64,000 nucleotides of DNA, from contig NZ_JAAVTX010000003.1 in NCBI RefSeq assembly GCF_012163145.1, forward strand, positions 682,001-746,000, in the 5' to 3' direction. The DNA comes from Falsiroseomonas frigidaquae. GTDB taxonomy: Bacteria; Pseudomonadota; Alphaproteobacteria; Acetobacterales; Acetobacteraceae. The notes beneath the pieces are model-generated. The model was given only the letters and a program-made list of their open reading frames with translations. It made no database searches and was not told where the DNA came from. The first letter of the stretch is position 1. Each line of letters opens with the position of its first letter. Below, one piece after another: positions 16,322-58,033 of this stretch. A program made the translations under genes and the position numbers.

Positions 16322-17377
16322 CTACAATCCGGCCCGGACGATCCGGACGAGCTGCGCGACATGCTCCGGCGGTGTCACCTTCTCAATGCCGTGGCCCAGG
16401 TTGAACACGAAGGGCCGGCCGCGCATCGCCGCCAGGATCTGCCGCGCCTCGGCTTCCATCGCGTCGCCGCCGGCAATCAGTGCCAGCGGGTCCAGATTGC
16501 CCTGCAGGCCCACCGTGGCGGCAACGGCGGAGGCGGCGAAGCGGGGGTCCATGGAGGTGTCCATGGCCACCGTGTTGACGCCGGTCCGCAGCGTGTATTC
16601 GCCGATCAGCGGCCCGGCCAGGCGCGGAAAGCCGATGATAGGGATGGAGGGGTGCAGCCGCTTCAGGCTGCGGACGATGGTCGCGGTGGGCTCGATCACC
16701 CAGCGGCGGAACTGCGCCGGCGGCAACAACCCGGCCCAGCTGTCGAACAGCATCAGTGCCTCGGCCCCCGCCTCCGCCTGGGCCAGCAGGTATTCCGTGG
16801 TGGCCTCGACCAGGATGCGGATCAGCTTGCCGAACAGGGCCGGGTCGCTGAAGGCCATCTGCCGCGTGGTGGCGAAGTCCCGGCTGCCATGGCCTTCGAC
16901 CATGTAGCAGGCGACCGTGAAGGGGCTGCCGGCAAAGCCGATCAGCGCGGTCTTCGGGTGCTGCGCCTCCAGCGCCGCGCGCACCCGGCGCACCGTCTCC
17001 AGGATCGGGGCCGCCCTTTCCCGCACCGCGCCCACTTCCAGAGCATTCACCGCTGCCAGGTCGCGCAACGGCTCGAGCTGCGGGCCCTCGCCCTCGGCGA
17101 AGCGGAGCGGCTGGCCCATGGCCCAGGGGACCATCAGGATGTCGGAGAACAGGATGGCGCCGTCCATGCCGTAGCGGCGGATCGGCTGCAGCGTCACCTC
17201 CGCCGCCATCTCCGGCGTGGTGCAGAGCTTGATGAAGCCGCCGGCCTGGGCGCGGATCTCGCGGTATTCGGGCAGATAGCGGCCGGCCTGGCGCATCAGC
17301 CACATCGGCGGCGGCCAGACTGCCTCCCCCGACAGGGCACGCAGCAGCGGTTTACCGGGCGCGTCCGTGGTCGTCAT
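16322..17377 (-). CDS. hemE: Uroporphyrinogen decarboxylase
   Basis: 351-aa enzyme decarboxylating uroporphyrinogen III to coproporphyrinogen III in heme synthesis. The signature PPPMWLMRQAGRYLPEYR near the N-terminus and the later ILFSDILMVPWAMG block are present. The start at 17377 (MTTTDAPG) fits family length; a longer frame to 17566 runs into the non-coding origin-like region and is unlikely to be used. In Caulobacter and Rickettsia hemE borders the chromosome origin, as proposed here. Confidence 0.95.
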   Translation of the reverse strand: MTTTDAPGKPLLRALSGEAVWPPPMWLMRQAGRYLPEYREIRAQAGGFIKLCTTPEMAAEVTLQPIRRYGMDGAILFSDILMVPWAMGQPLRFAEGEGPQLEPLRDLAAVNALEVGAVRERAAPILETVRRVRAALEAQHPKTALIGFAGSPFTVACYMVEGHGSRDFATTRQMAFSDPALFGKLIRILVEATTEYLLAQAEAGAEALMLFDSWAGLLPPAQFRRWVIEPTATIVRSLKRLHPSIPIIGFPRLAGPLIGEYTLRTGVNTVAMDTSMDPRFAASAVAATVGLQGNLDPLALIAGGDAMEAEARQILAAMRGRPFVFNLGHGIEKVTPPEHVAQLVRIVRAGL

Positions 17378-17839
17378 GCCCGCTGGCTCTGCCGTCAAAC
17401 CCGCCTCCCCTGGTTCCGCCCGATGGCTCCTCTGCCTAGGGCACGGCCGTCGAAACGCCAATTCCCCAATAAGAAGAAAGAATCCTAAAGAGTCTGTGGG
17501 GGTAGTAGGGCCCTGTGCACGATGGGGATCACGGCTCGCCCGGTTTTCGTCCACAGCCCTGTCCATAGCCCGACCGGGGCGCAGAGTGCTGATTCGGCTC
17601 GGTGAATCGTCTTACCCCCGGAAACGCTCCGCAACCGCGGCGATTCATCCCGTGTGCCGGCGCCGGGACGGTTGTCCCCACTGACAGGGCGGCGCCACCC
17701 GGCGGGCCGAACTTGTCCCCAGCATCCACGGCTTTCCGCAGCCGCTTCGACGCCCTGTCATGGGGCGGCGCCATGCGGTAAGCCTGCACACTGAGGAAAC
17801 CATTCGGCCCTGCCGGGCCGCCGGAGCCGGGCGCCCCAT
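17378..17839. other. Candidate chromosome replication origin (oriC)
   Basis: The longest gene-free gap in the window (462 bases), between hemE and ppsR. It holds an A/T-richer patch (about 17460-17494); near-matches (7/9) to the DnaA box TTATCCACA at 17523-17531 (minus strand), 17547-17555, 17672-17680 and 17713-17721 (the last two both TTGTCCCCA, 41 bases apart); five GANTC sites (17480, 17490, 17591, 17604, 17642); and an 11-base direct repeat GGGCGGCGCCA (17687 and 17763). hemE beside a DUF299 gene is the setting of oriC in Caulobacter and Rickettsia as I recall it. No perfect DnaA box was found. Confidence 0.6.
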
Positions 17840-18727
17840 ATGCCGAGCCGCACGATCAACCTGCACCTGGTCTCCGACAGCACCGGGGAGACGCTGAACT
17901 CCATTGCGCGCGCCACGCTGTCCCGTTTCGAGGACCCGCATGTCATCCACCATCGCTGGTCGCTGATCCGGTCCCGCCTGCAGCTCGACCGGGTGCTGGA
18001 GGGGATCCAGTCCGAGCCCGGCCCGGTGCTGTTCACCCTGGTCGATCGCAGCCTGCGCCTGGCGCTGGAGGAGCACTGCCAGCGCCTGCATATCGAGCAC
18101 ATGTCGCCGCTCGAGCCGGTGATGGAGATGCTGCAGCAGGCGATCGGCGCCCCGGCGCGCGAAAAGCGCGGCGCGCAGCATGTCATGGATGCCGATTATT
18201 TCCGCCGGATCGACGCCATGCACTATGTGCTGGCGCATGATGACGGCCAGGGCACCGCCGGCATCGCGGAGGCCGATGTCTGCATCGTCGGCGTCTCCCG
18301 CAGCAGCAAGACACCGACCTGCTTCTACCTGGCGAACCGCGGCATCAAGGCGGCCAATGTGCCGCTGGTGCCCGGCGCGCCGCTGCCGGTGGAGCTGGAG
18401 ACGGCGCCCTGCCCGGTGATCGGCCTGCATATCGAGACCAATGCGCTGATCGAGATCCGCCGCCACCGGCTGAAGCTGATCGGCGCGCATGGCGTGCACC
18501 ACGACGCCACGGATTACGTGGACCATGAGGCGGTGAAGGCGGAGATCCAGGCGGCCCGCCGGCTCTGCACCCGCCATGGCTGGCCGGTGATCGACGTGAC
18601 CCGCCGCTCGATCGAGGAGACGGCGGCGACGGTGCTGCAATTGATGGAGGCCTGGCACGCCCGCCGCGGCGCCAGGCCGCCGGAACCGCCGCGCTCGATC
18701 GATCCGGCCTCCGGCGTGTTGGCCTGA
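17840..18727 (+). CDS. ppsR: PEP synthase / PPDK regulatory kinase-phosphorylase (DUF299)
   Basis: 295-aa DUF299 bifunctional enzyme that inactivates pyruvate phosphate dikinase or PEP synthase by ADP-dependent phosphorylation and reactivates it by phosphorolysis. The N-terminal [15 protein letters not shown] and the P-loop GVSRSSKT (residues 151-158) are diagnostic. First gene to the right of the putative origin. Stop and maf start overlap as TGATG. Confidence 0.93.
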
Positions 18728-19353
18728 TGCGGCAGGCGGAGCAGCCGGCGCTGGTGCTGGCCAGCGCCTCGGCCACCCGCCGGGCCTTGCTGGAGGCGGC
18801 CGGGCTGCGCTTCGAGGCGATGGCCGCCGCGGTGGATGAGGCGTCGATCAAGGAAGCCGCCCAGGCGGAGGAGATCCCGCCAGCGGAGGCCGCGATCATG
18901 CTGGCCGAGGCCAAGGCCATGCGGGTGGTCCGCAAGCGGCCGGAGGCGCTGGTGATCGGCTGCGACCAGCTGCTGACCTGCACTGACGAAGCCGGGGTGC
19001 TGCGCTGGTACGACAAGCCGGCGGACCTCGCCGCTGCCCGCCGCCAGCTACTGGCGCTGCGTGGCCGGCGGCATGAGCTGGTGACCGCGACGGTGGCCTG
19101 GCGGGATGGCCAGCGCATCTGGCAGGACGTCACCACCCCGCGGCTGACGATGCGGGATTTTTCCGAGGAGTTCCTTGCGGATTACCTGGCCGCCGAAGGC
19201 GAGGCGGTGCTTTCCAGCGTCGGCGCCTATCGGCTGGAAGGGCCGGGCATCCACCTGATGGCGAAGGTGGAGGGCGCCCACAGCGCCATCCTCGGCCTGC
19301 CGCTGCTACCGCTGCTCGGTTTCCTGCGGCAGCATGGGGTTCTCGGCGCGTAG
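18727..19353 (+). CDS. maf: Maf-family nucleotide pyrophosphatase
   Basis: 208-aa Maf/YceF house-cleaning nucleoside triphosphate pyrophosphatase. N-terminal LASASATRRALLEAAG matches the signature SxSPRR-type block, with Ala replacing the usual Pro. VIGCDQLL fits the YceF type (m7GTP-preferring) better than the dTTP/UTP type with ADT; this subtype is inference. Coupled to ppsR. Confidence 0.9.
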   Translation: MRQAEQPALVLASASATRRALLEAAGLRFEAMAAAVDEASIKEAAQAEEIPPAEAAIMLAEAKAMRVVRKRPEALVIGCDQLLTCTDEAGVLRWYDKPADLAAARRQLLALRGRRHELVTATVAWRDGQRIWQDVTTPRLTMRDFSEEFLADYLAAEGEAVLSSVGAYRLEGPGIHLMAKVEGAHSAILGLPLLPLLGFLRQHGVLGA

Positions 19354-21691: not shown

Positions 21692-22180
21692 TCAGGCCAG
21701 CGTGATGCAGAGGGTAGCGGTGAAGCGCAGCGTCGCACCATGGATGGTCAGGTCGCCGCTGAATGGCTGCGGCTCGCCCGACTGATCCACGAAGCCCAGG
21801 CCGCCATCGGCATCGAGATGCAGCGACAGGCCCGGCTCCAGGACATTGATCGCGATGACCAGCTGCGTGAGCGAGACATCGCGCAGGGCCAGCACGTCCT
21901 GGCCTGGCTGACCGACGAATTCGGCATTGCCATCCGCCGGCGACCAGCAGGCTGCGGCCCGCGCCGGGACCGCGGATTGGGGTGCCTCGGGCGCCAATTC
22001 GGGTAACACTTCGGGTAACACTTCGGGGGCGAGGCGGGGCAATGCGTGGGTTCGGTGGGGGCCGTTGCCCTTGCCGGCCAGCCCCCAGCTCCCCCGCCCC
22101 CAGCTCCGCGCCAGATCATGCCAGCCGCGTGCCGAACGCGGGCCGCGCCAGAGGGAAGGTTTCTTGTTATCCGCGCTCAT
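21692..22180 (-). CDS. RTX-less paralog of the neighbouring RTX protein
   Basis: 162-aa protein of unknown function. The N-terminal half is basic and low-complexity (RGPRSARGW). A 12-base tandem repeat (CGGGTAACACTT units near 22003-22026) encodes EVLPEVLPEL. From about residue 90 it aligns with the C-terminal domain of the RTX protein at 22356: GQPGQDVLALRDVSL versus GGSGQDTLILQGVNL, and FSGDLTIHGATLRF versus FSGQLNIGGETLKF. It has no GGxGxD repeats, so it looks like a duplicate that lost the calcium-binding array. Expression unknown. Confidence 0.6.
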   Translation of the reverse strand: MSADNKKPSLWRGPRSARGWHDLARSWGRGSWGLAGKGNGPHRTHALPRLAPEVLPEVLPELAPEAPQSAVPARAAACWSPADGNAEFVGQPGQDVLALRDVSLTQLVIAINVLEPGLSLHLDADGGLGFVDQSGEPQPFSGDLTIHGATLRFTATLCITLA

Positions 22181-22355
22181 CAACCCAGTGCTCCCGCTTC
22201 TGCAACTCGCGTGAGTAAAGGCTAGGCGCGGGGCCAAAGGGCCGGCAGGCGGGGCGTAACGATCGGGCGGATAGGCAGCGCCTTGGCAGCGGGGGTTGAA
22301 CGCGCGAAGGGCGGCGCCGCTGCCGGCGCCGCCCCCCGTATAATTACCAGCAGGA

Positions 22356-22994
22356 TCAGAACTGGATCTGCAGGCGCTCCACATCGAAGAACTTCAGCGT
22401 CTCGCCGCCGATGTTCAGCTGGCCGCTGAAGCTGACCTGCTGGCCGGCCTGGTTGGTGAAGCTCACCTGCCCGGCGGAGTTCACCAGGATCTGCAGGCTC
22501 GGGTCATACAGCTGCAGCGCGGCGTTCAGCGTGTCCAGGTTCACGCCCTGCAGGATCAGCGTGTCCTGGCCACTGCCGCCATGGAACTCGTCGCTGCCGT
22601 CGCCCGGCGCCCAGATGTAGCTGTCATTGCCCTCGCCACCGAAGGCCTTGTCGGCCGCGCCGTCGCCCGCGCCGCCATCCAGCGAGTCATTGCCGGCATC
22701 GCCGAACAGCTCGTCGGAACCGTCGCCGCCATAGGCGAAGTCGTTGCCGCTGCCGAGGAAGACCTTGTCGTTGCCGGCGCCGCTGTTCACCGCGTCGTCG
22801 CCGCCGGCCGCATGGACCTCATCCTGGCCGCCGGCGGAGATGACGGTGTCATTGCCCTCGCCCGCGAAGATCTTGTCCATGCCGTCGCCGGTCTGGATGT
22901 TGTCCGCGCCGGCGGTGCCGTAGCGGTCGGTGAAATTGCCGCCCGAGACCTTTTCCAGGTCACTGCCGTCGATCGCCTTCGGTGTGCTGCTCAT
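22356..22994 (-). CDS. Small RTX (hemolysin-type) calcium-binding protein
   Basis: 212-aa acidic protein with about seven nonapeptide-like repeats (GEGNDTV, GAGNDKV, GSGNDFA, GDGSDEL, GDAGNDSL) across residues 35-135. These form a calcium-binding beta-roll in type I-secreted proteins. A C-terminal beta-rich domain follows and ends in QIQF. There is no Sec signal; the N-terminus DLEKVSGG resembles a double-glycine leader. No type I transporter genes are nearby. Ribosome site AGGAGG just upstream of ATG 22994. Role unknown; secretion is inferred. Confidence 0.8.
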   Translation of the reverse strand: MSSTPKAIDGSDLEKVSGGNFTDRYGTAGADNIQTGDGMDKIFAGEGNDTVISAGGQDEVHAAGGDDAVNSGAGNDKVFLGSGNDFAYGGDGSDELFGDAGNDSLDGGAGDGAADKAFGGEGNDSYIWAPGDGSDEFHGGSGQDTLILQGVNLDTLNAALQLYDPSLQILVNSAGQVSFTNQAGQQVSFSGQLNIGGETLKFFDVERLQIQF

Positions 22995-23257
22995 CGGAGC
23001 CTCCTTTTCGTTGCGTGTCCCGATGACCGAACGCTAGGCCCTGTCCGCGCCGCGCGATACGTGTCCCGTGCCTTTGGACGGCATAGGCGCAGCCGATGGC
23101 TGGTGACGTCCCAGACCGCTTGGCTGTTGCTTTTACTGCACAAGGAAGCCGCGCTGGCGCGTGTGGTGGTTCCAAGCCGGTAAAAAAAGATCCTGCGACA
23201 ATTGCGGGTCTGCCGGGCTGCAGCCTTGTTGCGGCGGCCCGGCAGCAGGCGGAAACG

Positions 23258-23290
23258 AAAAAGGCCCCCTCCGCGATGGCGGAGGGGGCC
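23258..23290 (-). terminator. Rho-independent terminator of typA
   Basis: Perfect 12-bp stem GGCCCCCTCCGC / GCGGAGGGGGCC (23263-23274 with 23279-23290), 4-base loop, then TTTTT on the minus strand (23258-23262). Just past the typA stop. The rest of the gap 22995-23257 is the presumed upstream region of the RTX gene; no clear promoter seen. Confidence 0.85.
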
Positions 23291-23326
23291 CTGGTAGGCG
23301 ATGGCCGAAAGGCCGGACGAAACGGC

Positions 23327-25156
23327 TTATGCCGCTTCGCTCTCGGACTTGCGGGCGTTCTTCTTGCGCTCATGCGGGTCGAGGTAGCGCTTGCGCAGGC
23401 GAACGGCGGTCGGCGTCACCTCCACCAGCTCGTCTTCCTCGATATAGGCGATGGCCTGTTCCAGGCTCATCCGGCGCGGCGGCACCAGCAGAAGCGCCTC
23501 GTCCTTGCCGGCGGCGCGGATGTTGGTGAGCTTCTTTTCCTTGATCGGGTTGACGTCCAGGTCGTTGTCCCGGCTGTGCTCGCCCAGGATCATGCCGACA
23601 TAGACCTTCACGCCCGGATCGACGAACAGCGTGCCGCGCTCCTGCAGCGAGAACAGCGAATACTGGATCGCCTCGCCATCGGAGTTGGAGATCAGCGACC
23701 CGTTGCGGCGGCCCTCGATCGGGCCGGCCCAGGGCTGATAACCCGCGAAGATGCGGTTCATGATGCCGGTGCCGCGCGTGTCCGTCAGGAACTCGCCATG
23801 GTAGCCGATCAGGCCGCGCGACGGGATCAGGAAGGTCAGGCGCAGCTTGCCGCCACCCGACGGCCGCATGTCCTGCATCTGGCCCTTACGCAGGGACAGC
23901 TTCTGCACGACGACACCCGAATATTCCTCATCCACGTCGACCAGGCATTCCTCGAACGGCTCCTCGCGCTCACCCGTCTCCGGGTGCGCACGGGTCAGCA
24001 CGCGCGGGCGGCCGATGGTCAGCTCGAAGCCCTCACGGCGCATCTGTTCGATCAGCACGCCGAGCTGGAGTTCGCCGCGGCCGGCCACCTCGAAGGCGTC
24101 CACTTCCTCGGAGACCTTGATGGAGATGGCGACGTTGCCCTCCGACTCCTTGAACAGGCGGTCGCGGATCTGGCGGGAGGTGACCTTCTTGCCCTCGCGG
24201 CCGCCGAGCGGGCCGTCATTGATGCGGAAGGTCATCGACAGGGTCGGCGGATCGACCGGGATGGCCGGCAGCGGCTCCATCACGGCCGGGTCGCAGATGG
24301 TGTCCGGGATGGTGCCGTTGGACAGGCCGGCGATGGCGATGATGTCGCCGGCATAGGCCGTCTCCACCACCACGCGGTCCAGCCCGCTGAAGGTCATCAG
24401 CTTGGTCAGGCGGCCGGTTTCCACCACGGACCCGTCGCGGCGCAGCACCTTCACCGGCATGTTGAGCCGGGCGGTGCCCTGCTCGACGCGGCCGGTCAGG
24501 ATGCGGCCGAGGAAGTTGTCGGCCTCCAGGATCGCGGCGTTCATGGCAAACGGCAGGTTCGGGTCGAGGCCCGGCGCCGGCACATGCGACAGGATCAGGT
24601 CGAACATCGCCGACAGGTCCTTCTTCGGACCGTCCATCGTCTCATCCGCCCAGCCCTGCCGGCCGGAGGCGAACAGCATCGGGAAGTCGAGTTGGTTGTC
24701 GTCGGCGCCGAGCGCCGCGAACAGGTCGAACATCTCGCTGTGGACCTCGTCCGGACGGGCGTCCTGGCGATCCACCTTGTTGACGACCACGATCGGGCGG
24801 ATGCCGCGGGCCAGCGCCTTGGTCAGCACGAACTTGGTCTGCGGCAGCACGCCCTCGGCGGCGTCCACCAGCACCACCGCGCCATCGACCATGGACAGGA
24901 TACGCTCCACCTCGCCGCCGAAATCGGCGTGGCCAGGGGTGTCCACGATGTTGATCTTGACGCCCTTCCATTCCACCGCGGTGGATTTGGCAAGGATGGT
25001 GATGCCGCGCTCGCGCTCGAGGTCGTTGCGGTCCATCGCGCGTTCCGCCACCACCTGATTGGTGCGGAAGGCGCCGGCCTGCTTCAGAAGATTGTCGACG
25101 AGGGTCGTCTTGCCGTGGTCGACGTGTGCGATGATCGCGACGTTGCGAATGTCCAT
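23327..25156 (-). CDS. typA: Ribosome-associated GTPase TypA/BipA
   Basis: 609-aa translational GTPase. G1 motif AHVDHGKTT at residues 10-18, RGITI switch I, DTPGHADFGG (G3) and NKVDRQDA (G4) are intact, followed by EF-G-like domains and the BipA C-terminal domain. It acts on the 70S/50S ribosome in stress and assembly. Single-gene unit with a strong terminator. Confidence 0.97.
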   Translation of the reverse strand: MDIRNVAIIAHVDHGKTTLVDNLLKQAGAFRTNQVVAERAMDRNDLERERGITILAKSTAVEWKGVKINIVDTPGHADFGGEVERILSMVDGAVVLVDAAEGVLPQTKFVLTKALARGIRPIVVVNKVDRQDARPDEVHSEMFDLFAALGADDNQLDFPMLFASGRQGWADETMDGPKKDLSAMFDLILSHVPAPGLDPNLPFAMNAAILEADNFLGRILTGRVEQGTARLNMPVKVLRRDGSVVETGRLTKLMTFSGLDRVVVETAYAGDIIAIAGLSNGTIPDTICDPAVMEPLPAIPVDPPTLSMTFRINDGPLGGREGKKVTSRQIRDRLFKESEGNVAISIKVSEEVDAFEVAGRGELQLGVLIEQMRREGFELTIGRPRVLTRAHPETGEREEPFEECLVDVDEEYSGVVVQKLSLRKGQMQDMRPSGGGKLRLTFLIPSRGLIGYHGEFLTDTRGTGIMNRIFAGYQPWAGPIEGRRNGSLISNSDGEAIQYSLFSLQERGTLFVDPGVKVYVGMILGEHSRDNDLDVNPIKEKKLTNIRAAGKDEALLLVPPRRMSLEQAIAYIEEDELVEVTPTAVRLRKRYLDPHERKKNARKSESEAA

Positions 25157-49513: not shown

Positions 49514-50374
49514 TCAGCCGCCGCCGTTGAGCAGCCGCACCAGGCCGTCCAGCTGGTCGAGGTCACGGTAGCGGACCACGACCTCGCCGCCCTTGCCGGC
49601 ATGCCGTACGAGCACCTGCAGGCCCAGGCGCTCCGTCAGGTCGCGCTCCAGCGCCCGGGTTTCCGGGTCCTGCGGGCGGGGGGGCGTAGCCTCGGGCTTC
49701 GGCTTGGCGGCGGCCAGGGCCTCCGTCTGGCGCACATTCAGGCCGCGCGAGACCACCTGTGCCGCCAAGCGGCCCGGATCTGCCGTGCCGATCAGGGCGC
49801 GGGCGTGACCCGCCGTCAGGACGCCATTGCGGACCAGGTCCCGAACCGGCCCGGGCAGGTTCAGCAGGCGCAGCGTGTTGGCGACATGGCTGCGGCTTTT
49901 CCCGACCGACTGGCCGAGATGTTCCTGGGTCAGGCCGAATTCGTCGAGCAGCCGCTTGTAGCCCTCCGCCTCCTCCAGCGCGTTCAGGTCCTGGCGCTGC
50001 AGGTTCTCGACCAGGCCGGCGGCCATCGCTTCCCGGTCGCCGAGGTCGCGGATGACGACCGGAACCTCATGCAACTGTGCGGCCTGGGCGGCGCGCCAGC
50101 GGCGTTCGCCGCCGATGATCTCGTAGCTGTCCGGGCTGCCGGCCTTGGGACGCACCAGGATGGGCTGGAGGATGCCGTGCTCGCGGATCGAGCTGGCAAG
50201 CTCGTCCAGGCTGGCGCGATCCATGCCGCCGCGCGGCTGGAAGGGGCCGGGTTCCAGCGCCTCCACCGGCACCGTGCGCAGCGCCTCACCCACCGGGGTG
50301 GGTGGGGCGTCCGGGATCAGCGCCGACAGGCCGCGGCCGAGGCGGGAGGTGGGCTTGCGTGTTGTGCTGCTCAT
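49514..50374 (-). CDS. parB: Chromosome partitioning protein ParB
   Basis: 286-aa CTPase/DNA-binding clamp loading at parS. N-terminal RLGRGLSALIPD, the PFQPR motif, GERRWRAAQ box, LVENLQRQDLNALEEAEGY and the HTH (HLGQSVGKSRSHVANTLRLL) are all there; the C-terminal dimerisation domain is short. Overlaps the parA stop (ATGA). Three parS sites lie within 8 kb. Confidence 0.96.
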   Translation of the reverse strand: MSSTTRKPTSRLGRGLSALIPDAPPTPVGEALRTVPVEALEPGPFQPRGGMDRASLDELASSIREHGILQPILVRPKAGSPDSYEIIGGERRWRAAQAAQLHEVPVVIRDLGDREAMAAGLVENLQRQDLNALEEAEGYKRLLDEFGLTQEHLGQSVGKSRSHVANTLRLLNLPGPVRDLVRNGVLTAGHARALIGTADPGRLAAQVVSRGLNVRQTEALAAAKPKPEATPPRPQDPETRALERDLTERLGLQVLVRHAGKGGEVVVRYRDLDQLDGLVRLLNGGG

Positions 50375-51186
50375 GAGGCGCGAATCCGCGCACGCTCCCG
50401 CTTGAGAAATTCGGCGGCAAGCTTGACATAGGCCTGCGCGCCAGGTGATCGGAAATCGTAAAGCAGGACCGGCAGGCCGTGGGAAGGGGCTTCGCTGACC
50501 CGGACGTTGCGGGGGATGGCCGTCTCGAACACCTTGTCCTTGAAGAAGCCGCGCACATCGCTGGCAACAAGTTCCGACAGATTGTTGCGGCGATCCATCA
50601 TGGTCAGCACGATGCCTTCCAGGCGAAGGCGCGGGTTGAAGGCGCGGCGGACCCGGTCGATCGTGCGCGTGATCTGGCTGATGCCTTCGAGGGCGAAGAA
50701 CTCGGTCTGCAGCGGCACCAGCACACCATCGGCGGCGACCAGGGCATTGAGGGTGATGAGCCCGAGCGACGGGGGGCAGTCGAAGAAGATGTAGTCGAAG
50801 CCGGCAAGCGCATCCCGCCCATCGGCCAATGCGGTGGCGAGCCGGCGTTCGCGATCTTCAAGGCCCACCAGCTCGATCTCGGCCCCCGCGAGATCCGGAT
50901 CGGCGGGCAGGATCCACAGGTTGGCGACCTGGGTCGGGCGCAGCAGATCGCCGAGCGGACGCCCTTCCACCAGCAACGCATAGCTGCCCGCCGAACGGTC
51001 CTGTGCCGCGACGCCGAGGCCGGTGGAGGCATTGCCCTGCGGGTCGAGGTCGAGCAGCAGCACCTTGTGGTTCGTGGCCAGGGCGGTGGCGAGATTGATC
51101 GCGGTGGTCGTCTTGCCGACGCCACCCTTCTGGTTGGCGAAGGCCAGCACCCGCGGCTGCGGGGCTTCAGGCTTGCGGCTGGACAT
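50371..51186 (-). CDS. parA: Chromosome partitioning ATPase ParA
   Basis: 271-aa Walker-type ATPase that, with ParB, moves origins apart. Deviant Walker A KGGVGKTT at residues 20-27; FDYIFFDCPPSLG is the Walker B region. Its start lies 20 bases inside the end of rsmG. Part of the classical mnmE-mnmG-rsmG-parA-parB cluster of near-origin genes. Confidence 0.96.
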   Translation of the reverse strand: MSSRKPEAPQPRVLAFANQKGGVGKTTTAINLATALATNHKVLLLDLDPQGNASTGLGVAAQDRSAGSYALLVEGRPLGDLLRPTQVANLWILPADPDLAGAEIELVGLEDRERRLATALADGRDALAGFDYIFFDCPPSLGLITLNALVAADGVLVPLQTEFFALEGISQITRTIDRVRRAFNPRLRLEGIVLTMMDRRNNLSELVASDVRGFFKDKVFETAIPRNVRVSEAPSHGLPVLLYDFRSPGAQAYVKLAAEFLKRERARIRAS

Positions 51187-51760
51187 GGCGAATATCGCTG
51201 AGGCGGAAGATGGTGGCCTCCGGGTCGGTGCGGCTGGCGAAGCGGTCTAGGGTGAAGGACCAGGCGGGCTGGGCCTCGGCGAGTTCGGTTTCGGCCATGC
51301 GTCCCTTGGGGAAAAGGGCAATGCCGCCAGGGGCGAGCAGGCGGTGGGCATAGGCCAGCAATGTGCCGAGCGGGGCCAGGGCGCGGGCGGTGAGCACGGC
51401 AAGTGGCGGCAGGCGCGCCTCCTCGATTCGGGTCGCATGGATCTGAACCTGGGCCAGGTCGAGGCGCGCGGCGGCTTCGTTCAGGAAGGCCGCCTTGCGG
51501 CGATCCGATTCCACCAGATGGGTTGGGCGGCCGGTGGCGATGGCGAGCACCAGGCCGGGCAGGCCGGCGCCGGAGCCAAGATCGCCAATCGGGCCGGCGC
51601 CTTCCGGCAGCAGCGGGACGAGCTGCAGGCTGTCTTCGATATGGCGCTGCCAGACCTGGTCCGTGGTGGTACGCCCGACCAGGTTGATGCGGGTGTTCCA
51701 GCGCAGCAGCAGCTCGACATAGGCGTCCAGCCGCGCCCGGATGGCGTCATCCAGTGGCAT
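51167..51760 (-). CDS. rsmG: 16S rRNA m7G527 methyltransferase RsmG
   Basis: 197-aa SAM-dependent enzyme (formerly GidB). LLRWNTRINLVGRTT, IGDLGSGAGLPGLVLAI (SAM motif I) and the AVLTARALAPL block are present. ATG 51760 chosen; an alternative GTG at 51805 would start inside the parS site and add 15 residues, and has a weak AGGGG upstream. Overlaps parA. Confidence 0.93.
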   Translation of the reverse strand: MPLDDAIRARLDAYVELLLRWNTRINLVGRTTTDQVWQRHIEDSLQLVPLLPEGAGPIGDLGSGAGLPGLVLAIATGRPTHLVESDRRKAAFLNEAAARLDLAQVQIHATRIEEARLPPLAVLTARALAPLGTLLAYAHRLLAPGGIALFPKGRMAETELAEAQPAWSFTLDRFASRTDPEATIFRLSDIRHVQPQA

Positions 51761-51797
51761 CGGGTCAGGCAGGGGGTGCGGGATCAAGGGGGCCGGG

Positions 51798-51813
51798 TGT
51801 TTCACGTGAAACC
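51798..51813. promoter_or_regulatory. parS site 1
   Basis: TGTTTCACGTGAAACC matches the ParB-binding consensus TGTTTCACGTGAAACA at 15 of 16 positions. Lies between the mnmG stop and rsmG. Confidence 0.9.
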
Positions 51814-51814
51814 C

Positions 51815-53689
51815 CTATACCGGCTCCACCGCGCCGCGTCGAAGGTGGATGGCCAGCGCGGCGACAGCAGCGGGCGTGACGCCGGGAACGCGACTGGCGG
51901 CGCCGAGGTTATCCGGTTGCGCACGTGCCAGTCGTTGCTGCATCTCGGTCGAGAGGCCCGGAATGAAGCGGAAATCGAAGGCGTCCGGGATCGGCAGCGA
52001 ATCCTCCCGCGCCAGCATGCGGCGCTCCGAATCCTGGCGGCGCAGATGCGGGGCGTAGAAGGCTTCGGCCTCCACCTGGACCGCGACCGCAGGCGGCAGA
52101 TCGGCCAGCCAGGGGAAGGCCATGGCCGCCATGGCGGCGGTGACATCCGGCAGGGCCAGCACCTCCAGCACCGTGCGGCGGCGGCCGTCCTGGCGAATCG
52201 GGATGCCGGCGGCGGCCAAGGCGAAGGGCGTGGCCTGGTCCTCGCCAGCCTGCCGCAATGCCTTGGTGACGTCCGTGGCGAAGCTGGCGTGGCGATCCGC
52301 GCGAAGGCTGCCGATGCAGCCCCAGCGCAGGCCGTGGCCGGTCAGCCGCAGCCCGGCATTGTCGGCGCGCAGGCTCAGTCGGTGTTCGGAACGCGCGGTC
52401 AGCATGCGGTAGGGCTCGCTGACGCCCTGGCTCACCAGATCGTCCAGCATCACGCCGATATAGGCTTCGGACCGCCCCAGGATCCGGTCCGGTGGCAAGC
52501 CGGCGGCGCGCTGGGCGGCATTCAGGCCGGCCATCAGGCCCTGGGCGGCCGCTTCCTCATAGCCCGTCGTGCCGTTGATCTGCCCTGCGAGGAACAGGCC
52601 CGGCGCGTTGCGAACCTCCAGGGTCCGGTGCAGGGCGCGTGGATCGACATGATCATATTCGATGGCATAGCCGGGCTGCAGGATGCGGGCGCGAGCCAAC
52701 CCGGGGATCGAGGCGATCAGCGCCGCCTGCACATCTTCCGGCAGGCTGGTGGAGATGCCGTTGGGGTAGACGGTGTCGTCGTCCAGGCCCTCCGGTTCCA
52801 GGAATATCTGGTGGCGCTGGCGATCGGCGAAGCGGACGATCTTGTCCTCGATAGAGGGGCAGTAGCGCGGGCCGACGCCCTGGATCTGGCCACTATAGAC
52901 GGCGGAGCGATGCAGGTTCGCCTGGATCAGGGCATGCGTCGCGGGCGTCGTCCAGGTGATCCGGCACTCGACCTGCGGATTGGTGATGCGGTCCGTCAGC
53001 CATGACATCGGCTCCGGCGGATCATCGCCGGGCTGCGGCTCCAGGGCTTCCCAGTCGATGGTGCGGCCATCGAGCCTGGGTGGCGTGCCGGTCTTCAGAC
53101 GGGCCAACGGCAGGCCGAGCCTGTCGAGCGTCCGCGCCAGTCCCACCGATGGGGCTTCGCCGCGGCGGCCAGCCGGAATGCGCGTGTCGCCGAGATGAAT
53201 TTCCCCGCGCAGAAACGTGCCGGTGGTGAGAATCGCGGCACCGCAGGGAATTCGGGCGCCGCTGACGGTGAGCACGGCGCGGACCCGGCCGGTGGCGTCG
53301 ATCTCCAGATCCTCGGCCGCATCCCCGCGCAGGGTGAGGTTGGGCTCACGTGCCAGCAGGTCCTGCATCGCGGTGCGATAGAGGCGGCGATCAGCCTGGA
53401 TGCGGGGGCCGCGCACCGCGGGGCCCTTGCTGCGGTTCAGTACCTTCGCGTGGATCGCGGCAGCATCGGCGGCGCGTGCGATCAGCCCGTCCAGCGCATC
53501 GACCTCCCGCACCAGATGGCCCTTGCCGATCCCACCAATGGCCGGGTTGCAGGACATCTCGCCAATCGTGTCAAGGCGGTGCGTCAGCAGCAGCGTGCGC
53601 GCGCCACAGCGCGCGGCCGCGGCCGCCGCTTCGCAGCCCGCATGACCGCCGCCCACCACCACCACGTCGAAGCCCGGATCTATCGCCAT
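51815..53689 (-). CDS. mnmG: tRNA uridine-5-carboxymethylaminomethyl enzyme MnmG
   Basis: 624-aa FAD protein (GidA) that, with MnmE, modifies the wobble uridine of several tRNAs. FAD motif [10 protein letters not shown] (12-21), [21 protein letters not shown]-type signature (split here to respect length), and a full C-terminal helical domain. Ends 2 bases from parS site 1. Confidence 0.96.
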
Positions 53690-53708
53690 GGAGCGCGGTA
53701 TAGGCCGA

Positions 53709-55034
53709 CTACTTGCCGATGCAGAAGTCGCGGAACACGGCGTCGAGAACCTGCTCCACCTCCACCCGCCCCGTCAGGCGACCCAGCGCATGCAGGGCCG
53801 TGCGATAGCCCTCGGCTGCCAGTTCAGGCAGCCGGGCCTCCACGGCTTCGCCCAGCCGCGCGGCGGCCTCCGTCAGCGCCGCACGATGGCGGGTGCGCGT
53901 CAGGGCAGGTGCATCGCCGATTCCAGCATGGCGCTCGGCGTGCTCGGCCAGAGCCGCCTTCAGCTCCGCGATCCCGCGTCCGGATTTCGAGCTGGTTGGC
54001 AATACCGGGTGAGAGGCGATCAGCTTCGGCGCCTCGGCGAGGTCGCATTTGGTCGCCAGGACCAGCACCTGCCGCCCTGCCACCAGCAGGGCGAGGCTTC
54101 CGGCATCGGGGGGTTCGTCGGTGGCGAAGGCCACCAGCACAAGGTCCGCCTCCTCCGCGCGGCGCGTGGCGCGCCGCACGCCCTCCTGCTCCACCGCATC
54201 CTGTGTCGCGCGCAGCCCAGCGGTATCGGCCAGCAGGACGGGCACGCCGCCCAGCACAAGGCGGCATTCCACGATGTCGCGCGTCGTGCCGGGCTGGGGT
54301 GAGACAATCACCGCATCACGCTCGGCCAGCGCGTTCATCAGGGAGGATTTGCCGGCATTCGGTGCGCCGAGGATCGCGATCGACAGGCCCTCCCGCAGGC
54401 GCTCCCCGCGTTTGCCGTCCGCCAGATGGCCGGCAATCTCTGCGCGCAGCTGGATCGCCGCGTCGCGCGCCTGTGCGCCGACATCGCTGGGCAGGTCGTC
54501 CATCTCGAACTCGATCGCGGCTTCCTGCTGCGCGAGGATGCGTGTCAGGCGGTTGGTCCAGCCGTCGTACAGCGTTGTCAGCGCGCCGCCGGCCTGGCGC
54601 AGGGCCTGGCGGCGCTGCGCTTCCGTCTCGGCCGCAATCAGGTCGGCGATGCCCTCCGCCTGCGTCAGGTCGATGCGTCCGTGCAGGAAGGCGCGGCGCG
54701 TGAATTCTCCCGGCTCGGCGGGGCGGCAGCCCAGGGTGAGGAGCGCCGCCTCGACGGCCGCGACAATCGCCAAGCCACCATGCAGGTGGAGTTCTGCCGC
54801 ATCCTCGCCGGTGTAGCTGCCGGGGGCCGGAAACCAGAGCACCAGCGCCTGGTCCAGCACTTCCCCCTCGGCGTTCTGCAACTGGCGCAGGCTGGCGCGG
54901 CGCGGCTCAGGCAGGCGGCCGGCCAGTGCCTGCAGCACCATCGCAGATTTCGGGCCGGACAGCCGCAATACGGCAACCGCGGCCGGCCCGGCGCCTGACG
55001 CCCGGGCCATGATCGTGTCGGTCACGCTGCTCAT
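53709..55034 (-). CDS. mnmE: tRNA modification GTPase MnmE
   Basis: 441-aa GTPase (TrmE) partner of MnmG. N-terminal formyl-THF-binding domain ([11 protein letters not shown]), central helical domain, inserted G domain with GAPNAGKSS and DTAGLR, and the C-terminal catalytic CxGK motif (FCIGK) are intact. Start at 55034, with parS site 2 nine bases upstream. Confidence 0.95.
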
Positions 55035-55042
55035 GCGCCGGA

Positions 55043-55058
55043 TGTTTCACGTGAAACG
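55043..55058. promoter_or_regulatory. parS site 2
   Basis: TGTTTCACGTGAAACG, 15 of 16 to consensus, between mnmE and the ferredoxin gene; it may overlap the mnmE promoter or leader. Confidence 0.9.
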
Positions 55059-57548: not shown

Positions 57549-58033
57549 CACGCGTCTTCCCGCACATCGGCCCGCAAGCCGCCAGACAGGCGCAGCAGCG
57601 CATCCGGCGTCGTGGCAAAGACATGCATCGGGGATCCTGCCGCCGCCCAGACCTGCTCGTGTTGGAACAGATCCTCATCGAGCAGCACCAGCGGCGGTGT
57701 CACATGCCCCACCGGTGCGACACCCCCGATGGCGAAGCCGGTGACATCCCGCACCCAGCCGCCATCGGCGCGTTTCACGTGAAACATGTCATCCAACGCC
57801 CTGCCTACCTTGCGCATGTCCACGCGATTGGCGCCCGATGCGATGACCAGCAGCGGTCGCTCCCCTGCGCGAAACACGATGGATTTGGCGATCTGCGCCA
57901 CCGTGCAGCCCACCGCCGCGGCGGCTTCCGCCGCACTGCGCGTGCCTTCCGGGAAGGACGCCACCGTGTCCGGATGCCCCGCCGCCAGCAGCGCCGCACG
58001 CACCCGTTCGACAGATCCGCCTGACATCGCCAT
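57548..58033 (-). CDS. YbaK/ProRS-associated-domain deacylase
   Basis: 161-aa YbaK/EbsC-like protein, probably hydrolysing mischarged aminoacyl-tRNA (for example Cys-tRNA-Pro). AQIAKSIVFRAGERPLLVIASGANRVD holds the conserved Lys, GGVAPVGH the glycine loop. parS site 3 is embedded in its coding region (residues MFHVKR, about 83-88). Confidence 0.87.
   Translation of the reverse strand: MAMSGGSVERVRAALLAAGHPDTVASFPEGTRSAAEAAAAVGCTVAQIAKSIVFRAGERPLLVIASGANRVDMRKVGRALDDMFHVKRADGGWVRDVTGFAIGGVAPVGHVTPPLVLLDEDLFQHEQVWAAAGSPMHVFATTPDALLRLSGGLRADVREDA
57771..57786. promoter_or_regulatory. parS site 3, inside the ybaK-like gene
   Basis: CGTTTCACGTGAAACA, 15 of 16 to the parS consensus, entirely within coding sequence. 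Confidence 0.85.

Follow-up and report, generated by a model that had tools for sequence, protein, structure and literature searches.

The hemE–ppsR gap as a probable chromosomal origin

We are highly confident that the 462-bp intergenic region at 17378..17839 is the chromosomal origin of replication (oriC) of a Falsiroseomonas-like bacterium, a reading based on its gene setting, its DnaA boxes and its conservation. The region lies in what we call the window, the whole 64-kb stretch of DNA analysed (C13:682001-746000 of a 6.08-Mb assembly in 19 contigs); the closest named relatives, in a scan of named genomes, are Falsiroseomonas. Two genes diverge from the gap: hemE, encoding uroporphyrinogen decarboxylase, on the minus strand (16322..17377; TIGR01464), and a gene for a ppsR-type (DUF299) regulator on the plus strand (17840..18727; NF003742), which is followed by a Maf-like gene (18727..19353, plus strand). 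These matches bear out the flanking genes named in a first-pass annotation of the same DNA, and its proposal of a candidate replication origin between them is supported by the conserved box sites and the nearby parABS system described below.

The setting beside hemE and a DUF299-type gene, the box cluster and the AT-rich region are together what is expected of a hemE-linked oriC. We consider it very probable that the gap is an ordinary representative of the hemE-linked origins already known in Alphaproteobacteria, its boxes being weak and its presumed melting region carrying CcrM sites. The assignment locates an origin in a lineage for which GC skew, as sampled, is too weak to do so by itself. 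The gap has a GC content of 67% and contains the 11-base direct repeat that had been reported (GGGCGGCGCCA, at 17687-17697 and 17763-17773). No RNA family was matched in 17000-18200 at E-values up to 0.1, and the single-strand fold of 17640-17800 has a z-score of -2.28.

DnaA-box sites and their conservation

We counted as a DnaA box any site with at most two mismatches to TTATCCACA. Four such sites are found in the gap, the best of them with two mismatches, as compared with a mean of 0.41 in 2000 dinucleotide shuffles (P = 0.0005 for reaching four), and these are the four 7/9 box-like sequences of the first-pass annotation, all of which are present. They comprise site A (17523..17531, minus strand; TGATCCCCA), site C (17547..17555, plus strand; TCGTCCACA) and sites E and F (17672..17680 and 17713..17721, both plus strand). 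The last two are the identical pair seen previously: the 64-kb window has just two copies of TTGTCCCCA, which lie inside the gap and 41 bases apart, and the family consensus at F is TTTTCCCCG. Three further sites, absent from that annotation, have three mismatches here and often correspond to better boxes in relatives. These are site B, which abuts A (17514..17522, minus strand; TCGTGCACA here), site D (17559..17567, plus strand; CTGTCCATA here, family consensus TTGTCCACA) and site G (17722..17730, plus strand; GCATCCACG here), with TCATCCACA as the family consensus at both B and G. In 346 kb of the organism's own DNA, at least four boxes within 462 bp are also found at two other places (4 or 5 boxes). 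When the same DNA was scored with a box profile trained on relatives, with the organism's own genome and L003 excluded, the gap ranked first, and an element at C13:68085-68294 scored almost as high.

The relatives were the best 80 of 415 from one scan of named genomes. A divergent hemE-ppsR gap of 288-477 bp is present in 79 of them, the exception (L074) being without hemE at what is there a contig edge, and these 79 gaps plus our own copy form the set of 80 aligned gaps. Together they hold 312 boxes within two mismatches (38.6 in shuffles) and 30 perfect boxes (0.05 in shuffles). Site B is within two mismatches of TTATCCACA in 59 of the 80 gaps and perfect in 19; the corresponding numbers within two mismatches are 52 for site C, 39 for G, 36 for D and 13 for A. 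Conservation in relatives had been set as a check on the proposed origin, and the aligned box sites do recur across the 80 gaps, whereas the exact TTGTCCCCA motif, to which that check referred, is poorly kept, with 32 of 80 gaps within two mismatches at site F and 12 of 80 at site E.

The arrangement extends across the class. A match to hemE was found in 93 of the 114 alphaproteobacterial genomes searched, and we inspected 29 hemE loci from the best-scoring other genomes among these 93. At 26 of the loci, ppsR diverges from hemE across a gap of 303-659 bp that carries three to nine boxes within two mismatches; the remaining three have no ppsR in the stretch examined.

The AT-rich block and the adjacent conserved stretch

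The putative DNA-unwinding element is an AT-rich block at 17453..17497, for which a homologous block is conserved in the relatives. Its AT content is 0.63 in the 30-base window that begins at 17453 and 0.70 in the one that begins at 17468, and the A/T-richer patch described in the first pass is thus present within a GC-rich gap. Between this block and box B lies a conserved GTAGG.GCC stretch (17505..17513), with homologous columns in the relatives. Read on the minus strand, the order is box B, GGGCC and CTACTA, and in 47 of the 80 gaps box B has a CTA[CT] after it within 10 nt. This order looked similar to the arrangement in Bacillus subtilis, where DnaA-trios follow a box. According to the published rule, a box is followed by a spacer of 0-16 and then by at least three NAN trios (PMC8287927). 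We rejected DnaA-trios because our own gap contains none by this rule and the set of 80 gaps is at the random level, with the rule satisfied in 15 gaps and by 17 boxes, as against 20.1 expected for positions drawn at random from the gaps. The published rule does not account for the GTAGG.GCC stretch.

Position of the gap on the chromosome

Genes that mark the origin region were identified to the right of the gap, namely parB-parA-type partition genes (49514..51186, minus strand) and rsmG-mnmG-mnmE (51167..55034, minus strand). Together with three parS-like sites, each with one mismatch (51798..51813, 55043..55058 and 57771..57786), they lie 32-40 kb from the gap. With a fourth parS-like site, at C13:670729, the range for the four is 29-40 kb; C12 carries a fifth. 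Of seven relatives searched, six gave a distance between the gap and the closest parS-like site, which was 7-74 kb, G007 being omitted from the distances as its parS contig was not matchable to its gap contig; contig identity was established by the hemE match for G001, G002 and G003 and by contig number for the other relatives. Such proximity of parABS is characteristic of a hemE-linked oriC.

Strand asymmetry was followed by GC skew and by the KOPS motif, which we took to be GGGNAGGG. For comparison, the octamers described as having a strand bias in Acetobacter pasteurianus include GGG[CA]AGGG (PMC3751514). Within the window there is no skew signal (-0.003 to the left of the gap and +0.002 to the right) and no KOPS signal (3:0 and 4:4, respectively), and the cumulative skew minimum is at 22001-24000 in 2-kb bins. 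Of the 22 samples taken further left on the window's contig, 17 have negative skew, and the KOPS there number 24 forward and 42 reverse, which is consistent with the expectation for DNA left of an origin. The first-pass annotation had expected the GC-skew minimum to fall at the gap; in sampled data the skew signal is weak. A 1.35-Mb contig of F. tokyonensis was sampled in 40 stretches of 15 kb. The cumulative minimum is in the stretch that holds the gap, albeit with a change-point score reached by 208 of 2000 permutations; the KOPS change point (5/2000) lies 0.3 Mb away. For Siccirubricoccus, sampled in 58 stretches of 10 kb, the minima are 0.4-0.8 Mb off: that of the skew fit (25/2000) is ~0.77 Mb from the gap and that of the KOPS fit (0/2000) ~0.4-0.6 Mb, the two flanking the gap on opposite sides without pinpointing it.

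Alternative explanations

It is very improbable, in our estimation, that the origin lies elsewhere, by dnaA or at the box-dense element C13:68085-68294, and that the hemE gap is a relic. The element does contain four boxes within one mismatch, stronger than those of the gap, and it is conserved in our own and four close genomes; moreover, the oriC of A. pasteurianus 386B was predicted to be near dnaA, with skew, AIMS and Ori-Finder cited in support (PMC3751514). However, skew samples from our own contig are negative on both sides of 68 kb, with no sign change there, and the element follows ubiG in only 5 of 18 loci inspected, our own included (with just 311 nt at L274). A sequence model of the element, run with stricter filters, picked up 7 of 149 other genomes of the family, all through weak matches and none of them beside ubiG. 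As for dnaA, no box within one mismatch is found across the surrounding 20 kb, whereas the hemE gap recurs across the Alphaproteobacteria (26/29 loci). Extremely improbable, too, is the view that the gap is a DnaA-regulated promoter region of hemE and ppsR and no origin at all. These genes do form a divergent pair, and many Caulobacter promoters contain DnaA boxes (PMC4468827), but we judge an AT-rich block together with seven aligned box sites to exceed the needs of a promoter. Furthermore, hemE is a marker of the origin mapped in Hyphomonas and borders the Caulobacter origin (PMC6650430), partition genes are near the gap, and a search of 17200-18000 found no sigma-70-like promoter, which is itself weak evidence.

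The intergenic element at C13:68085-68294 (equivalent to L200:8085-8294, with counterparts in L265-L269) spans ~210 bp after a ubiG-like gene and contains the inverted DnaA boxes TTATCCCCA and TTTTCCACA, an AAAAT run and GTTC-N7-GTTC, which we assume to be the SOS-box pattern; it is possibly a DnaA-titration or SOS-controlled locus. Several of the weak matches to it (L290-L298) have a compact triad of box, box and inverted box, for example TTATCCCCA...TGGGGATAA.

Weak boxes and DnaA specificity

No perfect box is found in any of the 14 Falsiroseomonas-like gaps, a group assigned by eye that includes our own, as compared with 29 of the 66 others. We compared a 38-residue DnaA segment around GGRDHTT, obtained from 23 of 24 loci (L263 gave none), in a set without Acetobacteraceae whose gaps hold perfect boxes. 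GGRDHTT is present in all 23, and this DNA-binding segment agrees with our own at 30-38 of its 38 positions. Both segment and gap are known for three genomes only, G008, G013 and G015, in which the best boxes have 1, 1 and 0 mismatches and the segments match our own at 37, 36 and 33 of 38 positions, respectively. Given how little the segment varies among the 23 loci, altered DnaA specificity is unsupported. The first-pass suggestion of possible variant boxes in this genus thus stands in so far as the group has weaker sites, but the DNA-binding segment of DnaA is as in the relatives. The likeliest reading, judged from these sequences, is that the box sites were weakened rather than that DnaA changed, which suggests decay of boxes and not a shift in DnaA specificity. 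Weak origin boxes are known in Caulobacter (PMC4468827).

Comparison with known origins and a proposed initiation pathway

Like oriC of Escherichia coli, the gap has DnaA boxes beside an AT-rich region. The site recognized by CtrA is TTAA-N7-TTAA. Unlike Cori of Caulobacter crescentus, our gap has no TTAA and hence no such site, and the strict motif matched in 1 of the 80 gaps (L018 only), so that the mark of a Caulobacter-type CtrA-controlled origin is not seen; IHF sites, again by a strict motif, were found in 0 of 80. Cori and the gap are alike in their link to hemE (PMC6650430) and in their weak DnaA boxes, which in Cori include G- and W-boxes (PMC4468827). The hemE-linked oriC of Sphingopyxis, which belongs to another order and is likened here by its published description, shares with the gap a conserved setting, conserved DnaA boxes and a putative unwinding element recognized through relatives (PMC4741004). 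In Hyphomonas neptunium, marker frequency peaks near hemE, with parAB and parS close by as they are here; that origin was mapped by experiment, whereas the origin role of the gap is one that we infer (PMC6650430).

We infer DnaA binding, melting, initiation and the direction of spreading along the following lines. DnaA-ATP would assemble on the mostly weak box array, with A and B on the minus strand and C, D, E, F and G on the plus strand, and the oligomer may then extend from A/B to the left, in the direction of hemE. Melting of the AT-rich block (17453-17497) would allow the helicase to load, and replication would proceed bidirectionally from the gap. ParB bound to parS sites 34-40 kb away would segregate the origin region.

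GANTC sites in the presumed melting region

GANTC is the methylation target of CcrM. Our gap has five matches to this motif, absent from the earlier annotation: two in the AT-rich block (17480..17484 and 17490..17494) and three others (17591..17595, 17604..17608 and 17642..17646). Over the 80 gaps there are 415 GANTC, versus 122 in shuffled sequence and 21 expected from the density in the flanks, and by both measures GANTC ranks first in enrichment among 256 XYnZW patterns. Its count is above that of every equal-length flank window in 66 of the 80 gaps, with 8 ties and 6 below. The AT-rich block, which was picked after the alignment had been inspected, holds at least one GANTC in 70 of 80 gaps as compared with ~10 expected from letter shuffles; when the set was thinned to 32 gaps with <60% identity, the numbers were 25 and 4.1. 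The 26 gaps of other Alphaproteobacteria have 72 GANTC versus 40.6 in letter shuffles, and three of them have none. Outside the 64-kb window, 7 of 13596 windows of the organism's own DNA reach the five GANTC of its gap; the three in the Siccirubricoccus gap are reached by 203 of 28072 windows of its samples.

The genome also encodes a CcrM-type methylase (PF01555 + PF18755), and the gene and the GANTC enrichment of the gap are together what a CcrM-methylated origin would be expected to have. A RAMA-domain match was found in 30 of 32 genomes, in 29 above the cut-off. We rejected the idea that GANTC is tied to the presence of CcrM, there being no contrast between genomes with and without such a match: the gaps that lack GANTC (G029, G056, G040, L033 and L034) belong to genomes with a RAMA-domain match, and the two genomes without one, G060 and G089, have 4 and 3 GANTC in their gaps.

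It is conceivable, and we regard it as rather unlikely, that the unwinding block of the Acetobacteraceae oriC is itself a CcrM target, with hemimethylation after firing putatively limiting re-initiation. The hemimethylated state would persist until late in the cycle, when CcrM acts, and would alter melting or DnaA access. In E. coli oriC, Dam sites lie in the unwinding 13-mers and resemble the GANTC sites of the AT-rich block, although the methylase differs; if the proposal is true, the two would be convergent counterparts. Cori also carries several GANTC sites, initiation stayed normal in a Caulobacter ccrM deletion, and intergenic over-representation of GANTC is already known for Alphaproteobacteria (PMC3973325). 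The concentration of GANTC in the AT-rich block, as measured in Acetobacteraceae gaps, poses the question of whether CcrM methylation affects initiation outside Caulobacter; the portions of the literature on GANTC that we consulted (PMC3973325, PMC11514494, PMC6090056 and PMC8116508) give no account of GANTC in the Acetobacteraceae unwinding block. A separate cluster was observed in F. tokyonensis, between genes or at a gene edge, where eleven GANTC fall within ~280 bp with a repeated CGAGTCGCG (C1:1066589-1066866; L198:6589-6866).
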